Positions 53,992-62,802 of a stretch of DNA of 64,000 bases are shown piece by piece. The notes under the pieces were generated by a model, which saw only the letters and a list, made by a program, of their open reading frames with translations, was not told the DNA's origin and did not search any database. The stretch comes from an uncultured Desulfuromonadales bacterium (lineage in GTDB: Bacteria; Desulfobacterota; Desulfuromonadia; Geobacterales; Pseudopelobacteraceae): the NCBI GenBank assembly GCA_903868145.1, contig CAIPTY010000051.1, positions 1 to 64,000 on the forward strand, written 5' to 3'. Both the position numbers and the translations under genes were made by a program. Within the stretch, counting starts at the first letter, position 1, and each line of letters begins with the position of its first letter.

Positions 53992-54224
53992 AAAGGCTCC
54001 CTGTTTTTCCCCGTCAATGCGTGTGCCAGGTCCGACAGACCCCTGAATTGATTGAACATCGTCATTAAGGGAGGTATGTCAGTGTTGTGTAATACCGGGA
54101 AAGTATACCTTCAAATTTTTCTCTGGCAATCCCATTAATGCAGTTCAAAGCTTTACTTGACTCATTCACACACGAATTGCTATAGTCACACCGCTGTTTT
54201 ATTTTACGCTTCTCGAGGGTGCGG

Positions 54225-54752
54225 ATGCCGCTGGATCAGGGTTGCGTTCAGGTGTATACCGGTGACGGCAAAGGCAAGACAACCGCCGCCCTTGGCCTGG
54301 CATTGAGGGCTGTCGGTCGCGGCCTGAAGGTCTGTGTCTTCCAGTTCATAAAGGGGGGCGGCCCCTACGGTGAGCACCTTGCCGCGCAAACCCTTGCACC
54401 CCTGTTGACCATCATCCAGACCGGTCGTCCCGGCTGGGTCAACACCAAAGACATCACCGAGGATCGCCGCGTCGCGCAGGAGGCTCTGGTGTGCGCGCAA
54501 GATCTGCTGAATTCCGGGGCATACGATCTTTTCATCTGCGACGAAATCAACGGCGCCGTCTGGTTTGGTCTCATAGACGTGGAACAGGTGCTGAACCTGA
54601 TCAGCGGTAAACCGCAACGTGTGGAGCTGGTGCTGACAGGGCGTAGCGCTCATGAACGGGTGATTGAGGCGGCCGACCTCGTAACCGAGATGCGCGAGAT
54701 CAAACATTATTACACGGCGGGGGTGCCGGCAAGAACCGGCATCGAAATGTAG
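54225..54752 (+). CDS. cobO: Corrinoid adenosyltransferase (CobO/BtuR type)
   Basis: 175 residues from ATG 54225 (GAGGGTG just upstream). P-loop [19 protein letters not shown] near the N terminus, then [13 protein letters not shown] and [17 protein letters not shown] (Walker-B-like). It transfers adenosyl from ATP to cob(I)alamin to give coenzyme B12. It is followed 50 bases later by a B12-binding mutase subunit, and nearby is a B12-binding sensor; all would need its product. Confidence 0.92.
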
Positions 54753-54802
54753 GGCGCCCCGGGAAAATACTGTCAACCGATACTTTATCATACAGGAGGA
54801 AA

Positions 54803-55213
54803 ATGACCATGGCGGAAAGAACTTTACGTGTACTCGTTGGAAAACCGGGACTTGACGGGCACGACCGTGGAGCCAAGATCATCGCTCGCGCTTTTCGTGA
54901 CGCCGGGTTCGAGGTCATCTACACCGGTCTGCATCAGACGCCGGAACAGATCGTCTCCGCTGCCATCCAGGAAGACGTGGACTGTGTCGGCCTGTCTATC
55001 CTCTCCGGCGCCCATTGCACGCTGCTGCCCCGCGTCACCCAGCTTCTCAGGGAGAAAGGCGCCGACGACATAAAGGTATTCGGCGGCGGAGTCATCCCCG
55101 AAGACGACATACCCGGCCTGAAGTCCGCCGGTATCTGCGAGGTATTCACACCCGGTACTTCCACAGAAGATATTGTCAAATGGATCCAGACCAACATACA
55201 GCCAAGAGCCTGA
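54803..55213 (+). CDS. Cobalamin-binding subunit, methylmalonyl-CoA mutase C-terminal type
   Basis: 136 residues, RBS AGGAGG. Rossmann-like B12 domain with the cobalt-ligand motif LDGHDRGAK (D18-x-H20-x2-G23), [14 protein letters not shown] (SxL motif), and [11 protein letters not shown] (GG motif). Free-standing mutase small subunits pair with a separate catalytic subunit (not in the window). Gene order after cobO couples cofactor supply with use. Confidence 0.9.
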
Positions 55214-55376: not shown

Positions 55377-56651
55377 ATGGAAACACCACCCAAAACCGGG
55401 TTCCTCGATCATCTGCGATCCCTTACCTGGCATCGGCACGAAGCCTTTGAACGCCTTCCCTTTATCACAGCCCTGATGAAAGGCACACTCCCGCTGGAAT
55501 GCTACATCGGCCAGTTGCGGGGTTTGGCCATCATTTTCTCAGCCCTCGAACAAACCCTTGCACAATCCCAGTCTGCAGCGATTGTTCGGGTCAGACCACT
55601 CTTGAAATCCAGATTCGATATGCTCTGTGCAGATCTGGCCTTCTTTTCTCCGCAGCTTGTGCCCGACATCCTCCCCGCTGTCAATCAGGCGTCGGAGATT
55701 GCCCGGAAGATTCGAGCTGCTTCATTCATTTCAACCGGCAAGCTGCTTGGTTTTCTGTATGTCCTGGAAGGAACAACCAAAGGAAATCAGGTGCACCTGC
55801 CCGACATCGAACGCTGCTTTCATCTGAATAATGATGTGGGTGGCTCGTTTTATCGCGGATACGGCGCTGAAACGGATACACACTGGCACGAGTTCTGCGC
55901 GGCCATGGACGGTGTTGACGAAGACATTGTCAAAGACGCCCTGCGCGGAACAGTCGAGATATATGACGCTCTGGAACAGTTTCATGCCGCACTGTACCCC
56001 GTAGCGATGAGTGCTCGCGGTTTTACGGCCACAGCCCTGAATCCCGAGGCCGGAGAGCACTGCGTGCCACAGGATCCGGCAGTTCTCCAGGCCGCCCTGC
56101 GAGCCGGGAGACGCTGCCGGGAGGCATTCTCCTACTACGAGCGCCGCTATGGTGATCGGGGGCGCCGTTTCACCGATAGCGATGCGGCATGGCTGGCGGC
56201 CCTGACAGACCAGCCGGTAGCGATTGTTACCGATCAGGTAATCTGGCTGGGCAGGGTTTTATCAGCCCGGGGCATGCCCTTTCTGCTGATGGAGCGCCAA
56301 CTGGAACTGCTGGTTGAGGAGTTGGGAAATCTGGAAAATGCCATACCAACAGAGTCGCTTCAGTCGCTCATTGCCTACCTGCGGCAACAGCGCTGCGATC
56401 TCGTTTCCAATTTCCGCTTTGACGAGGCCTGCCACAGGTTGTCGGAGATCCTGTCCGATACACGCGTATCCGATATCCCTGATCTGCCGCTCATCCTGGT
56501 TGCGGCACAGGTCGACCGGCTGGCCGGAATGCCGGAATGCATGGCCTCGCTGCTCTCCTGGCTGCGAAGCGATTCCGGCCTGACGGAAGAGCAGATAGAG
56601 GCGGCGCAGCGCGTTCTTGCCTCCATGCACTCAAGCGACGGTGCGTCATGA
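55377..56651 (+). CDS. Heme-oxygenase-like protein with long C-terminal extension
   Basis: 424 residues. Residues 8-215 look like a biliverdin-producing heme oxygenase: LRSLTWHRHEAFERLPFITA (T17-x3-H21-x3-E25, the proximal-His helix), LGFLYVLEGTTKGNQVHLPD and NNDVGGSFYRGYG (the distal-helix position). The remaining 200 residues are helical and unrecognised (RRCREAFSYYERRYGDRGRR, ELLVEELGNLENAIPTESLQ). It is the first gene of a signalling operon, overlapping the next start by 4 bases (ATGA), so it may be a haem/bilin/gas sensor rather than a degradative enzyme. Catalysis is not proven. Confidence 0.75.
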   Translation: METPPKTGFLDHLRSLTWHRHEAFERLPFITALMKGTLPLECYIGQLRGLAIIFSALEQTLAQSQSAAIVRVRPLLKSRFDMLCADLAFFSPQLVPDILPAVNQASEIARKIRAASFISTGKLLGFLYVLEGTTKGNQVHLPDIERCFHLNNDVGGSFYRGYGAETDTHWHEFCAAMDGVDEDIVKDALRGTVEIYDALEQFHAALYPVAMSARGFTATALNPEAGEHCVPQDPAVLQAALRAGRRCREAFSYYERRYGDRGRRFTDSDAAWLAALTDQPVAIVTDQVIWLGRVLSARGMPFLLMERQLELLVEELGNLENAIPTESLQSLIAYLRQQRCDLVSNFRFDEACHRLSEILSDTRVSDIPDLPLILVAAQVDRLAGMPECMASLLSWLRSDSGLTEEQIEAAQRVLASMHSSDGAS

Positions 56652-57847
56652 ACGGACAGGCCAACACCGTACGATTTCCGGTTTCGGTTCTCTGTGTTGA
56701 TGATGAGCCGACAAACCTGGACATCCTGACACGAATCCTCTCCAAACATGTGGAGACCCTCTATTTTGCCTCAAACGGGCGGGATGGTCATGTCCTCTAT
56801 CTTGAAAAGCGCCCTGACATTGTACTGACAGACCTTATAATGCCGGTTCTGAACGGACTTGAGATGAGTTGCATGATCCGGGCTACAGAACCCAAGGCGC
56901 CCATCATTCTGCTCACCTCGTGCAACGGCATCGATTTCCTGGCAGAGGCCATAGACATCGGAATCACCCAGTATCTGCCCAAGCCGATTCTGAAGGACAG
57001 GCTGCTGACCGCCATTCAGCGCTGCTACGAAATCATCGACCTCGAACGCCGGCTCAAGGACGAGCAGGAACGCTCCATTGCCCAACTGCTGAGCGCCCAG
57101 AAGCTGGAAAGTCTGGGGGTGCTTGCGGGAGGCGTTGCCCACAACTTTAACAACATCCTCACGGCAATCCTCGGAAATGTGGCCCTTGCCACGATGAATC
57201 TGCCGCAGGATTCTCCCGCTGCAGCCTTCCTGAATAACATTGAGAAATCGGCTATCCGTGCCGCAGATATAGCCCAGCTCATGATGGATTATTCGGGACG
57301 GGGGTTTTTCCTGGGCAAACAGGTCGATCTGAATGTCCTGCTGAGGAGTATGCAGAGTGTTTTTGAATCAACCATTCCCAAAAAAATCACCACGTTGTGT
57401 GTCCATGCCGATCCGCTCTATCCGATCAAAGGTGATGCGGCACAACTGCGCCAGGTGGTCATGGCTCTGATCCTGAACGCTGTGGAGGCCATGGGCGACG
57501 ACAACGGAACACTGCACATCGCCACCGGATGCGAGGAGTGTGACCGGGGCTATCTTGCCGCCTGCTGCTTCAATGAAGGCGCAATCGAAGGGCGCTATGC
57601 CTTTCTGGAGGTTTCTGACACCGGATGCGGAATGGATTCAACTACCATTGCAAAGCTTTTCGATCCCTTTTACAGCACCAAGTTCACCGGTCGGGGTATG
57701 GGAATGGCAGCGCTTTCGGGTATTGTACGTTGGCACGGGGGTGCCATCCACATCATAAGCAAACCGGGCGTAGGAACCGCCGTCAAAATTCTGCTGCCTG
57801 CGATCCCTGAGCCGGTATCGGATTCCACAGGAGGTGGGCATGGCTGA
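56648..57847 (+). CDS. Receiver-histidine kinase protein (REC-HisKA-HATPase)
   Basis: 399 residues from ATG 56648. REC domain 12-128 with D62 (IVLTDLIMPVLNG) and a CVDDEP pocket, then a coiled coil (LERRLKDEQERSIAQLLSAQ), HisKA with H165 (LAGGVAHNFNNIL) and HATPase (DTGCGMDS, GRGMGMAALSGIVRWHGG). With REC first, it is a relay node rather than a direct sensor. It overlaps the preceding heme-oxygenase-like gene (ATGA) and the next B12-protein gene. Confidence 0.9.
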   Translation: MNGQANTVRFPVSVLCVDDEPTNLDILTRILSKHVETLYFASNGRDGHVLYLEKRPDIVLTDLIMPVLNGLEMSCMIRATEPKAPIILLTSCNGIDFLAEAIDIGITQYLPKPILKDRLLTAIQRCYEIIDLERRLKDEQERSIAQLLSAQKLESLGVLAGGVAHNFNNILTAILGNVALATMNLPQDSPAAAFLNNIEKSAIRAADIAQLMMDYSGRGFFLGKQVDLNVLLRSMQSVFESTIPKKITTLCVHADPLYPIKGDAAQLRQVVMALILNAVEAMGDDNGTLHIATGCEECDRGYLAACCFNEGAIEGRYAFLEVSDTGCGMDSTTIAKLFDPFYSTKFTGRGMGMAALSGIVRWHGGAIHIISKPGVGTAVKILLPAIPEPVSDSTGGGHG

Positions 57848-58523
57848 ATCAGCCGCTGTCAACCACGTTGACTCTCCATTTTCCGAAATAGCCACGGCCT
57901 ACCTCGAAGCACTGCTGGCCGCTGATCGCATAAAGGCTCATGCAATCATCAACGTAGCGCTGCGTGACGGCCTGGCCATCAAGGATCTCTACCTGGGTGT
58001 CTTTCAGCCGGTGCAACACGAAGTCGGGCGGCTATGGCTCCTCAACAAGGTAAACGTGGCCGAAGAGCACTTCTGCACCGCTGCAACCCAGACCATCATG
58101 TCCGAGCTCTACCCGCAGATCATTTCCACCACCCGTCTCGGCAGGACGATGGTCGCCGCCTGTGTCGGATCGGAACTCCACGAAATAGGCGTCCGTATGG
58201 TCGCTGATTTTTTTGAGATGGAGGGGTGGGACACCTACTATGTCGGCGCGGGTATTCCACACGATCAGGTGCTGTCAGCCATTGAACAGCGAAAACCCGA
58301 TCTGGTTGCTCTCTCGGCCACAATGACCTATCATGTCGCCAAAGTGCAGGAGCTGATTGCAGCCATCAGAAACGCTTTTCCCGGCGCAGCGCATCACATC
58401 ATGGTTGGCGGCCTGCCGTTCAACAGCTCCCCCGATCTGTGGCGCACGGTAGGGGCTGATGTGTGGGCAACCGACGCGGGACAGGCCGTACAGGCGGCAC
58501 AGCAGCTGATCCAGACAGCTTGA
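57840..58523 (+). CDS. Free-standing B12-binding sensor protein (CarH/AerR-like domain)
   Basis: 227 residues from ATG 57840 (GGAGGTGGGC upstream; overlaps the previous gene by 8 bases). A four-helix cap (about 15-95) carries W66-x9-E76-H77, the motif typical of B12 photoreceptors of the CarH family; the B12 Rossmann domain has E112-x-H114-x2-G117 as lower-ligand motif, SATMTYHVAKVQ and MVGGLPFNSS. No MerR DNA-binding or methyltransferase domain is attached. The extra His that follows the Trp in T. thermophilus CarH is Leu here. Neighbouring kinases suggest it signals by protein contact. A corrinoid methyl carrier is the alternative. Confidence 0.82.
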   Translation: MAESAAVNHVDSPFSEIATAYLEALLAADRIKAHAIINVALRDGLAIKDLYLGVFQPVQHEVGRLWLLNKVNVAEEHFCTAATQTIMSELYPQIISTTRLGRTMVAACVGSELHEIGVRMVADFFEMEGWDTYYVGAGIPHDQVLSAIEQRKPDLVALSATMTYHVAKVQELIAAIRNAFPGAAHHIMVGGLPFNSSPDLWRTVGADVWATDAGQAVQAAQQLIQTA

Positions 58524-58534
58524 AGGGAAAAAAC

Positions 58535-59740
58535 ATGCCACACCGTTCTGCCGGGAAAGGCTTTGTTGTGATCTGCGATGTCTCCGGCACCATAGAGCAG
58601 ATCATCCGTAATGAGTATGACTTGACACGGGAGTTCTCCGCAGGTGTTCCCATTGCCGAAATCTTCGATGAGGCCTGCCTTGAAAAGGTACTCCTCTTTC
58701 TGGACGAAGCCCGTACCAAGGGCTCGGCGTTTGACTGGGAACTGGTAATCCCGCTTCATGCCGGCATCTCGACAATGCACTGTGCCGCCGCGCTCCTGGA
58801 GGACAAGCTGCTGGTTGTGGGCGCCGGTTCCCGTGATTCCACCATCCAGGTTATCGAGGAAATGCTCAAGATCAATAATGAGCAGACCAATCACCTGCGG
58901 ATACTGATGAAAGAGCTTCAGAATGCCTCATCAAAACTGAAGGCGCACGATCAATCCATCTATGACGAGCTGACCCATCTCAACAACCAGTTGTCGGGCA
59001 TGCAGCGGGAACTGCTGAAGAAAAACCATGAGCTGGCCCAGTTGAACCAGCAGAAAAACTACTTTCTCGGCATGGCGGCTCACGATCTGCGCTCTCCCCT
59101 GGGGACGATCGTTTCGTACAGCGAGTTCCTGCTGGACCAGGAACGGGAGCACACCCCCGAGGATGACCGGGAGCTGGTCGGCACCATCCGGAAATCCAGC
59201 GAATTCATGCTGGGATTGATCAACGACCTGCTGGACATTTCCAAGATCGAATCGGGCAATCTGAACCTGAACCTGCTCCCGCTGAGTCTGCATGATCTGA
59301 TCTCCCGCAGCGTTGAGGTGAATCGGGTGCTTGCCATTAAAAAGGGGATCGGCATCCAGGAGGTGCATGACGGCACCCTGCCGGAAACTGTCGTCTGGGA
59401 CGGGCCGAAAATCGAGCAGGTACTGAACAACCTTCTGGGCAACGCCATCAAGTTCAGTCACCCTCACAACACCGTTACCGTCCGCCTTTCCGTTGATGAC
59501 ACCAGACTCCTCCTGCAGGTTGAGGACAAGGGAGACGGTTTGCCGGCGGAGATTATCGACCATCTCTTCATCCCCTTCAGCAAAGCCAGCAGGGTCGGCA
59601 CCCAGGGCGAAAAGGGAACCGGACTCGGCCTGGCCATTGTCAGGCGTATCGTGGAGGGGCACGGCGGAGAGATCCGGGCCGAAAACATTCCTGAAGGGGG
59701 CACGCGCTTTGTTGTCACGCTCCCCCTTGGCGGGGTGTAA
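58535..59740 (+). CDS. Histidine kinase with N-terminal PAS-like sensor domain
   Basis: 401 residues from ATG 58535; the frame could extend to 58463 inside the preceding gene. N-terminal sensor 10-110 (GFVVICDVSGTIEQIIRN, a PAS-like beginning), a long coiled coil (about 110-175, SIYDELTHLNNQLSGMQREL), HisKA with H183 (GMAAHDLRSPLGTIVSYSEF) and HATPase ([29 protein letters not shown]). No membrane segment. It is 11 bases after the B12 protein gene and immediately precedes the REC-GGDEF gene, the natural kinase for the cobalamin sensor. Confidence 0.9.
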   Translation: MPHRSAGKGFVVICDVSGTIEQIIRNEYDLTREFSAGVPIAEIFDEACLEKVLLFLDEARTKGSAFDWELVIPLHAGISTMHCAAALLEDKLLVVGAGSRDSTIQVIEEMLKINNEQTNHLRILMKELQNASSKLKAHDQSIYDELTHLNNQLSGMQRELLKKNHELAQLNQQKNYFLGMAAHDLRSPLGTIVSYSEFLLDQEREHTPEDDRELVGTIRKSSEFMLGLINDLLDISKIESGNLNLNLLPLSLHDLISRSVEVNRVLAIKKGIGIQEVHDGTLPETVVWDGPKIEQVLNNLLGNAIKFSHPHNTVTVRLSVDDTRLLLQVEDKGDGLPAEIIDHLFIPFSKASRVGTQGEKGTGLGLAIVRRIVEGHGGEIRAENIPEGGTRFVVTLPLGGV

Positions 59741-61114
59741 ATGCCTTTGCACAGCATTATGGTGGTGGATGACAACGTGGATATGCTCACGGTCTATGGC
59801 CGTGTCCTGACGGCTGAAGGATTCGAAGTGTTCACCGCCGCCACCGGGAGCGAATGCCTGAAACAGATTGAAACGGTCTGTCCGGACATTTTTCTGCTGG
59901 ACGTGATGTTGCCCGACTGGAACGGCATCGATCTGGTGCGGGAGATCAAGGGTCGGACGGAATGCGCCAATAGCTTTATTGTCCTCCTTTCCGGCCTGAT
60001 GACAGACAGCGACTGCAAGGTCAGGGGACTGGACGCCGGGGCGCTGGATTATCTGGCCCGTCCGATCCCCAACAAAGAATTGGTTGCCAAGGTCAAATCG
60101 CTCGTCAAGGTCATGGAATTCCAGGAATCTCTGGTGAATATCAGCAAAAAATTTGAGGCACTCAGCATTACGGATGGCCTGACCGGAATCGCCAATCGAC
60201 GCTGTTTTGACGAAGTAATCGCTCAGGAGCACTCCCGGCATGCCCGTTCGGAGGGCAAACTTTCACTGATCATGCTGGACATCGACCTCTTCAAATCATT
60301 CAACGACCACTACGGGCATGTCTGCGGCGACGACTGCCTGCGCAGGATAGCCAAGGTCATCGACGAAAGCACGGCACGGCCGGGCGATCTGGTAGCCCGC
60401 TATGGCGGCGAGGAATTCGCCTGCATCCTGCCGGAGACGGATCAGCGCGGGGCTCTGCTGATCGCTGAAAAAATACGGCAGGCCATTCTTGATCTGGCCA
60501 TACCCCATGCCTGGTCGAATATAGCCGAATGCGTAAGCGCCAGCCTGGGAGTCGTAACGAGCCACTGCGGCTCGGACAGCTCGGTGACGGAGATCGTTCA
60601 CCGGGCGGATGAACTGCTCTACAAGGCCAAATCCCTTGGCCGCAACCGGGTGGAGTGCAACGAACTGATGCACACGCCGGAACAGATTCACACACATCTT
60701 GTGCAACTGGTCTGGAAAGACTCCTTCAGTTCCCGCAACGACCTGATCGATTCCCAGCATCAACTCCTTTTCCATGACACCAACGAACTGCTGGAAGCCA
60801 TTATTCTGGCTCGTCCGAAAGACGAACTGAATTCCATTGTCAATCGCCTTCTTTCCGATGCTGCACAGCACTTTAACGACGAAGAATGCGTCCTTGGCGA
60901 GATCGGTTTTCCCGGTTCGGCAAAACACGCCGCTGAACATGCGCGATTGCTGGTCGATGGTCGCAAACTGGCGAGGAAATTCACTGCAGACGCGCTTAAC
61001 GTCGGCGATATCTTTCAGTTTATGGTTCACGAGCTCGTCATGCAGCATATGCTCGGAGCCGACCGTGATTTTTTCCCGTATACATGCACTGCGCCACAGA
61101 GGGGAGACACCTGA
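59741..61114 (+). CDS. REC-GGDEF-bacteriohemerythrin protein (putative diguanylate cyclase)
   Basis: 457 residues. REC 1-125 with phosphoacceptor in LLDVMLPDWNG; GGDEF domain about 150-305 with active site G222-G-E-E-F226 and inhibitory site R213-x2-D216; C-terminal hemerythrin domain about 330-450 (LIDSQHQLLFHDTNELLEAI, QHFNDEECVL, HAAEHARLL, HELVMQHMLGADRDFF), whose His/Glu/Asp set binds a di-iron O2 site. Phosphorylation and O2 could jointly tune cyclic-di-GMP (or cyclic-AMP-GMP) synthesis. Begins right after the kinase stop (TAA-ATG). Confidence 0.92.
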   Translation: MPLHSIMVVDDNVDMLTVYGRVLTAEGFEVFTAATGSECLKQIETVCPDIFLLDVMLPDWNGIDLVREIKGRTECANSFIVLLSGLMTDSDCKVRGLDAGALDYLARPIPNKELVAKVKSLVKVMEFQESLVNISKKFEALSITDGLTGIANRRCFDEVIAQEHSRHARSEGKLSLIMLDIDLFKSFNDHYGHVCGDDCLRRIAKVIDESTARPGDLVARYGGEEFACILPETDQRGALLIAEKIRQAILDLAIPHAWSNIAECVSASLGVVTSHCGSDSSVTEIVHRADELLYKAKSLGRNRVECNELMHTPEQIHTHLVQLVWKDSFSSRNDLIDSQHQLLFHDTNELLEAIILARPKDELNSIVNRLLSDAAQHFNDEECVLGEIGFPGSAKHAAEHARLLVDGRKLARKFTADALNVGDIFQFMVHELVMQHMLGADRDFFPYTCTAPQRGDT

Positions 61115-62802
61115 TGTCACTGCACAGTATCATGGTGGTTGATGACAATACGGATATGCTCAGTGTCTATGCCAGGGTTCTGGCGCAGGAGGGGTTCGAG
61201 GTATTCACCGCTGCCACCGGAAAGGAATGCCTGGAACAGATTGAAACAGTCCAACCGGATATTTTTCTGATGGATGTGGTTCTGCCCGACTGGAATGGTG
61301 TTGATCTGGTGCGGGAGATCAAGGTGCGTCCAGCGTTTGCACACAGCATGTTTGTTCTGTTATCGGGACTCATGACCGACAGCGACTGCAAGATCAGGGG
61401 GCTGGATGCCGGAGCGCTGGATTATCTGGCCCGTCCGATACCCAACAAGGAGCTGGTGGCCAAGGTAAAATCCCTTGTCAAGGTCATGGACTTTCAGGAT
61501 TCTCTGGTGGCACTCAGCAAGGAGCTGGATCAGTGCGTCACCGAACGCACCCGCGAACTGGAAGTGACCGTTGAAGCGCTTCAGCGGGAGATAGAGAGCC
61601 GCAGACTGCTTGAAGAACAGTTCCGGCACGCCCAGAAGATGGAGGCGATCGGCACCCTGGCAGGCGGCATCGCCCACGATTTCAATAACATACTTCAGAT
61701 CATATCGGGAAACGCCTATCTGAAGAACAGTAAGGATCTGGCACGGGGCGAACGATCGCCCGAAATCGACCAGATACTGGAAGCAGTGGAGACGGCATCC
61801 AACATGACCCAGGGTCTGTTGGCGTTCAGCCGCAGACAGAAGCTGGATATGCACCCGCTCAATCTGAACGATCTGATGCGGCAAAGCGTGAAACTGGGAC
61901 AGCGGCTGGTGGAGGAGAGTGTTGTCATTACCTCCGGCCTCTGCCCTGACAAACTACCGGTGATGGCCGATGCCGGGCTGATCCAGCAGGTGTTTTTCAA
62001 CCTGATCACCAATGCACGCGATGCCATGAATGCCTGCGGTGCCATCACCGTGCGTACATCATCCGAGACCGTCACGGGTGAGTTTCCGCCCCGGAGCCTT
62101 GCCCTGCCAACCATCCCGACACCGGGCAAATACGCGGTTCTCAGCGTAACGGACACTGCTGCGGGCATCCCCGATGAAATCATGGAGCAGATCTTCGACC
62201 CCTTTTTCACCACCAAGCAGTCAGGTGAAGGGACGGGACTTGGTCTCGCCATGATTCACGGCACCATCATCCAGCATGAGGGTTTCATCGTCGTGGATAC
62301 CCTCCCAGGCAGCGGAACGACCTTCAGCATGTATCTCCCCCTGCGCGAGCAGATGGAATTAAAGGAACAAGGCCCGGTTTGCTCCGACATAGCCCCGGAA
62401 CGCCCCGCACAATATACCATTCTGGTTGTGGAAGATGAAGCGAGCGTCCGTGAACTGCTGGTGCTGGCTCTGTCCAGCGTCGGATACCGGACGATTATCG
62501 CGGAAAACGGAAGACAGGCGGTTCAGATCTTCCGTGAGTCTCAGGGAGAAATATCCCTGATCCTGATGGACATCGTCATGCCGGAAATGACCGGGAAAGA
62601 GGCGATAGATCAGATACGGAAGCTGAATGCAGATGTTCCCTGCATGTTCATGACCGGATACGGCGCAGAAGTCATCAGTCGCTTTGACATCTCACTGCAC
62701 GACACCATCATCAAAAAACCTTTCAACCTGCCGGCTCTTCTGCAAAAAATCAGGCTTCTTCTGGAGAAGTCATTCCAATTCCAGATCCAGGATGATATCT
62801 AG
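61114..62802 (+). CDS. REC-histidine kinase-REC hybrid protein
   Basis: 562 residues; ATG 61114 overlaps the previous stop by one base. REC1 with D54 ([11 protein letters not shown]) is about three-quarters identical over 140 residues to the REC of the preceding gene, so it arose by duplication. A coiled coil leads to HisKA with H188 ([13 protein letters not shown]), HATPase ([23 protein letters not shown]) and REC2 with D486 ([13 protein letters not shown]). Likely a phosphorelay node fed by the same signal as its duplicate. Confidence 0.92.

Follow-up and report, generated by a model that had tools for sequence, protein, structure and literature searches.

In the photocobilins SasPcob and AbDPcob a B12-binding domain is fused to a photoglobin domain (PMC10979010; PDB 8J2W, 8J2X and 8J2Y), and in Myxococcales the BBAG-2 globins, which bind biliverdin and carry an RGMC motif, are encoded in clusters with heme oxygenase (HO) and B12 protein genes (PMC10151467). 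Photocobilins are known from a handful of fused proteins, in which chromophore supply and downstream partners are open. Here we describe a six-gene unit on the + strand at 55377-62802 of a 64,000-nucleotide stretch of DNA (the window; contig CAIPTY010000051.1, positions 1 to 64,000) from an uncultured Desulfuromonadales bacterium. We read this operon as a probable split-photocobilin light-signalling unit, at a probability of about 0.65, in which genes 1 and 3 would correspond to a photocobilin cut in two. The reading builds on domain identities, conserved residues, gene pairing and co-occurrence, from which we infer chromophore binding, HO activity, docking, the direction of phosphotransfer and a light response. 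A first-pass annotation of this DNA knew of no described pathway of such composition. Pairs of B12 protein and bilin globin are on record, however (PMC10979010; PMC10151467), and given these fused photocobilins and BBAG-2 globin/HO/B12 clusters the two-protein form with HO-globin, B12 protein and kinases is a variant. A full-text literature search, outside whose coverage the photoglobin paper PMC8717448 fell, returned no report of an HO-photoglobin fusion with a separate B12 partner and kinases.

Gene 3 (57834..58523) encodes a four-helix cap (PF02607) and a Rossmann domain (PF02310). A profile search of the PDB places photocobilins first (8J2X/8J2W, E ~2.4e-35; 8J2Y, E 1.8e-24), with CarH far lower in the same search at E 1e-5, 30 orders of magnitude behind. 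The adenosyl-pocket motif Wx9EH is present as W68-x9-E78-H79, and the cobalt-ligand motif, the E/DxH of photocobilins, as E114-L-H116 within ExHxxG; both are invariant or nearly so among the relatives of gene 3, and the photoreceptor-type motif named in the first-pass annotation is thus retained. From these residues gene 3 is predicted to bind adenosylcobalamin in a pocket of the CarH/photocobilin type. With CarH it shares the cap, the Rossmann fold and Wx9EH, but it consists of cap and B12 domain with no MerR-type DNA-binding domain, and a Leu follows W68, where CarH has the His that forms its bis-His light state. A second cap and B12 protein with Wx9EH and ExHxxG is encoded elsewhere in the same genome (L169, 6771-7889; G000:C85); it is longer at the N-terminus by about 150 residues, and kinase and REC genes lie alongside.

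Gene 1 (55377-56651) had been annotated as a heme-oxygenase-like protein. This holds for residues 6-211, but residues 213-424, half of the protein, are not heme oxygenase, and the globin they contain had been missed. The C-terminal part gave no credible match to Pfam, nor did the globin part alone in a sequence search of the PDB. As a comparison set we took photocobilins from Streptomyces plasmids, which are full-length relatives of 8J2W (E 6e-101). Profile-profile alignment with hhalign matches the gene 1 C-terminus to their globins at E 5.1e-4 with 17 sequences and at E 5.7e-5 (score 36.0) with 37 sequences; this comparison covered photocobilin globins only. Control scores reached at most 19.1 across 60 column shuffles, 60 reversed block shuffles, two reversals and three unrelated helical profiles (HO, B12-cap and kinase). 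In the alignment Asp269 and Trp290 of gene 1 fall on Asp270 and Trp296 of SasPcob, whose numbering was confirmed through W61, E71, H72, H108 and H137. In SasPcob, biliverdin is contacted at its A-C pyrrole rings by Asp270, and Trp296 stacks on ring D and also touches the corrin (PMC10979010). Neither Asp269 nor Trp290 varies across the HO-globin family (37/37 members). The domain (about residues 213-320; 56013..56336) also has Trp272 and an RGMP motif at 298-301, of which Pro301 is found in 37/37. It shares the RGM with BBAG-2, but RGMP in place of RGMC leaves no Cys there. A C-terminal extension (residues 321-424; 56337..56648) is helical in the model and has conserved Asp380 and Trp395. As judged from profiles and residues, then, gene 1 is a fusion of heme oxygenase to a photoglobin-type globin, and the globin domain is predicted to hold biliverdin.

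The N-terminal domain of gene 1 (residues 1-211; 55377..56009) has the HO fold (Pfam PF01126, E 1.6e-10, over residues 6-211). The AlphaFold2 model of the protein has a predicted local distance difference test score (pLDDT) of 92.3 and in a fold search matches rat HO-1 (1dvg) with Z 25.1 and a root-mean-square deviation of 2.3 over 204 residues. As in BphO-like bacterial enzymes, the fold, the proximal His (His21), the distal-helix glycines (Gly132 and Gly136) and a YVLEGxxxG motif are kept. The distal Asp140 of HO-1 is replaced by Thr133; motif alignment shows that other bacterial HOs with the YVxEGSxLG motif, to whose type the distal helix of gene 1 belongs, also lack this Asp and mostly have Ser. 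Gene 1 differs from BphO-like enzymes in its distal-helix sequence, EGTxxGNxVHLPD, and in the 200-residue globin-containing C-terminal part. The domain is predicted to convert heme to biliverdin with oxygen. The involvement of a tetrapyrrole or bilin that the first-pass annotation had raised gains support from the HO fold and the photoglobin-type domain, and the globin accounts for HO and B12 proteins being encoded together.

The association of the two proteins extends beyond this genome. At 25 of 40 loci the distance from an HO-globin or globin gene to a photocobilin-type B12 gene is no more than 1.4 kb; open reading frame bounds are uncertain at two of these 25, and at two the B12 gene is on the opposite strand. 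A homologous globin is fused to the B12 domain in photocobilins, and genes 1 and 3 look like a split photocobilin. Among related genomes, the B12 protein is present in 13/14 with a gene 1 match and in 9/134 without (Fisher p 4e-12, a value too small, as kinship inflates the co-occurrence); the sole exception among the 14 has a decayed gene 1 copy with stops. The distance matrices of the gene 1 and gene 3 partners are correlated (r 0.64; 0/2000 permutations), and paralogous gene 1/gene 3 pairs in two genomes (G046 and G050) correspond partner by partner. HO-globin relatives, some in several copies, occur in 14 of 147 related genomes and in none of three same-genus members, and the unit is therefore patchy. 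More distant relatives were found in metagenome-assembled genomes (MAGs) of Holophagaceae and other Acidobacteria, Desulfobulbaceae, Desulfosoma, a betaproteobacterium, Victivallales and Verrucomicrobia. Two loci, L102 in an Acetobacteraceae MAG and L101 in Thiocapsa roseopersicina, encode the globin as a protein of its own close to a B12 gene, and the HO of Thiocapsa is encoded elsewhere, away from the globin gene. A globin search of 398 Pseudomonadota genomes gave no further clear case besides Thiocapsa.

The locus differs from photocobilins in three respects, although gene 3 has their B12 domain and gene 1 the biliverdin-contact Asp and Trp of SasPcob: B12 and globin domains lie on separate polypeptides (57834-58523 and 55377-56651), the globin is joined to a heme oxygenase, and histidine kinases would carry the output in place of a direct fusion. 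It resembles BBAG-2 in its genomic link with HO, here in cis, and with a B12 gene, and departs from BBAG-2 in joining HO and globin in one chain, in its kinase partners and in having no bilin reductase among the six genes.

The remaining genes encode the putative relay. Gene 2 (56648..57847) is a REC-histidine kinase (Pfam REC-HisKA-HATPase). Gene 4 (58532..59740) has an N-terminal part that Pfam does not recognize and whose order of strands and helices in the model is PAS-like (about residues 8-98), followed by a long coiled coil and a histidine kinase (HisKA-HATPase). Gene 6 (61114..62802) is a REC-histidine kinase-REC protein. The DHp His and the G-boxes are found in all three kinases. By Pfam and motif checks, gene 5 (59741..61114) is a REC-GGDEF-hemerythrin protein, with a GGEEF active site (at 222), an RxxD inhibitory site (I-site) and all seven iron ligands of the hemerythrin (H340, H377, E381, H396, H400, H436 and D441). 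The predicted cyclic di-GMP (c-di-GMP) output is shared with AbDPcob. The closest precedent for gene 5 is Bhr-DGC of Vibrio cholerae, whose activity is under redox control and rises tenfold in the diferrous state (PMC9388753). Both join a hemerythrin with the full H-HxxxE-HxxxH-HxxxxD ligand set to an intact GG(D/E)EF domain, but gene 5 has its hemerythrin at the C-terminus and an additional REC domain. The phosphorelay to c-di-GMP proposed in the first-pass annotation is supported, with the direction of phosphate flow inferred.

Conservation of the six-gene order in relatives was looked for; sub-modules are conserved and the six-gene string is not, the full order being seen at no other locus examined. 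Locus L060 holds HO-globin, REC-kinase, B12 protein and PAS-like kinase in the same order as the window, and L172, at 53-80% identity, holds REC-kinase, B12 protein, PAS-like kinase and REC-kinase-REC but has neither HO-globin nor gene 5. A counterpart of gene 2 stands at the same position in both. Kinases of the gene 4 type are paired with B12 genes at L046, L050, L052, L060, L073, L091, L102, L170-L172, L174 and L175. The pair of B12 protein and PAS-like kinase is the most stable core of the operon, to which the HO-globin is a frequent add-on, and gene 4 presumably partners gene 3 directly. The REC of gene 5 and the first REC of gene 6 are 84% identical. Together with the absence of gene 5 from L172, this suggests that gene 5 may have arisen locally, as a recent insertion, by copying of the gene 6 REC onto a GGDEF-hemerythrin protein, and that the same kinase may serve both near-identical RECs.

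As a split photocobilin, the operon could work as follows. The BphO-like HO of gene 1 would open heme to biliverdin when oxygen is present, the photoglobin domain would hold the biliverdin so made, and gene 3 would carry adenosylcobalamin. The two proteins would dock as the halves of a photocobilin, and the Co-C bond would break when B12 receives green light or when biliverdin receives red light and relays it to B12. Cleavage would alter the gene 3 assembly, the PAS-like kinase of gene 4 would read the change, and phosphate would pass to the REC domains of gene 5 and gene 6. Synthesis of c-di-GMP by gene 5 would be under additional oxygen or redox control at the di-iron hemerythrin, and genes 2 and 6 would shape the relay. 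Light and oxygen had been named as possible inputs, and as possibilities both are supported. More tentatively, and at clearly less than even odds, the HO domain may pass the biliverdin it makes straight on to its fused globin, which would then dock with the B12 protein, giving a photoreceptor with a chromophore source of its own. Since HO needs oxygen, the red-light branch would in that case operate only after oxygen exposure, and the operon would be a coincidence detector of light and oxygen, with the hemerythrin as a second oxygen check.

Several observations weigh against the split-photocobilin reading, beyond the kinship noted above. The fold search list for the whole of gene 1 is filled by HO, and the globin fold of its C-terminus therefore rests on profile and residue evidence. 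The PAS-like domain of gene 4 is modelled with moderate confidence, and the fold search of that model lists mainly kinase cores, such that the PAS-like part was barely probed. The distal helix of the HO has Asn137, where other HOs have Gly or Ala, in addition to Thr for the HO-1 Asp, and these substitutions may alter HO activity. Roughly one HO-globin locus in three lacks a nearby B12 gene, and one clade (L063-L065) has lost the proximal His with the globin still kept. In that clade (L063, 6832-8238; L064, 9433-10842; L065, 197-1531) the globin residues are retained and no B12 gene lies nearby; its members are likely sensors that no longer make bilin. Close to the L063 HO-globin is a GGDEF-hemerythrin gene with 68%/41% identity to gene 5.

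Such loci, and the clade that has no heme ligand, would also fit an explanation that we regard as unlikely, in which B12 alone senses light and the HO-globin is an accessory sensor of oxygen, redox or heme status, through heme or bilin, rather than an antenna for B12. In its favor, the B12 and PAS-kinase pair occurs without HO-globin in genomes G065 (L172) and G113 (L174), and B12 and kinase genes occur without it on Azospirillum plasmids (L113 and L114). The invariant biliverdin-contact Asp and Trp of the globin argue against it, however, as does the physical fusion of the same globin type to a B12 domain in photocobilins (PMC10979010). On the Azospirillum plasmids (L114, 8569-10938, A. brasilense Sp7; L113, 8596-10890, A. 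thermophilum) a B12 protein >50% identical to gene 3 adjoins a histidine kinase, whose PAS-like part in L114 is unrecognized by BLAST. Azospirillum and Skermanella plasmid records, in a search that left chromosomes aside, have the B12 protein and no such globin. The Azospirillum pair offers a tractable host for such a module.

Less probable still is that gene 3 senses the form or supply of cobalamin (methyl-, adenosyl- or hydroxocobalamin, as in one-carbon metabolism) and not light. Its fold is common to methyltransferase corrinoid proteins, and directly upstream of the operon lie cobO and then a stand-alone gene (54803-55213; TIGR00640, 174 bits) encoding the small, B12-binding subunit of an acyl-CoA mutase; the two genes together span 54219-55213. 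But the closest solved relatives of gene 3 are light-active photocobilins, Wx9EH, the adenosyl holder in CarH and photocobilins, is kept, and the upstream B12 genes are not conserved beside relatives. The first-pass annotation had suggested cobO as a possible source of adenosylcobalamin for the operon; as the mutase gene intervenes, cobO is more naturally the partner of that gene, and we dropped it as a part of the unit. In a Thermodesulfobacteriota MAG (L088, 1636-3767) cobO divergently adjoins an HO-globin gene.

That the HO makes biliverdin only on behalf of another receptor, or for iron, with its position in the operon incidental, seems very improbable. In favor of this view, it is the sole HO of the genome; against it, the HO is fused to a bilin globin and repeatedly adjoined by B12 genes, and the genome has no phytochrome PHY domain, which also led us to drop service to a phytochrome. 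The host genome (3.8 Mb, 97% complete), whose kin are uncultured Geobacteraceae and Geobacter MAGs, encodes no second HO. It does encode two proteins of the heme-copper oxidase family, one of which may be a nitric oxide reductase; they make an oxygen supply for HO plausible and speak against the strict anaerobe that had been supposed.

The gene calls of the first-pass annotation were recovered in full, with six open reading frames on the + strand at or very near the coordinates it gave. Genes 1 and 2 overlap by ATGA and genes 2 and 3 by 14 bases, a gap of 8 separates genes 3 and 4, genes 4 and 5 abut, and genes 5 and 6 overlap by TGATG, an arrangement that in six co-oriented genes is operon-like. 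Promoter and terminator scans gave signals at chance level only.

This operon and its relatives would represent, in bacteria that are not regarded as light-sensing, a two-protein form of the photocobilin, with a bilin-making enzyme fused to the bilin holder and candidate kinase partners. Through it the route of biliverdin to the photoglobin, signalling from the B12 light switch to a kinase and the joint reading of light and oxygen become testable, and the modular halves and the red-light branch would be of use for optogenetics. Among the Streptomyces plasmid photocobilins, those at L116-L118 and L120 adjoin PP2C/SpoIIE phosphatase genes and mostly also STAS genes, as reported for SasPcob. Streptomyces sp. 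SGAir0924 (L119, 2980-6582) has a photocobilin gene immediately upstream of a cluster of gas-vesicle genes, a layout hinting at light-controlled gas-vesicle proteins.

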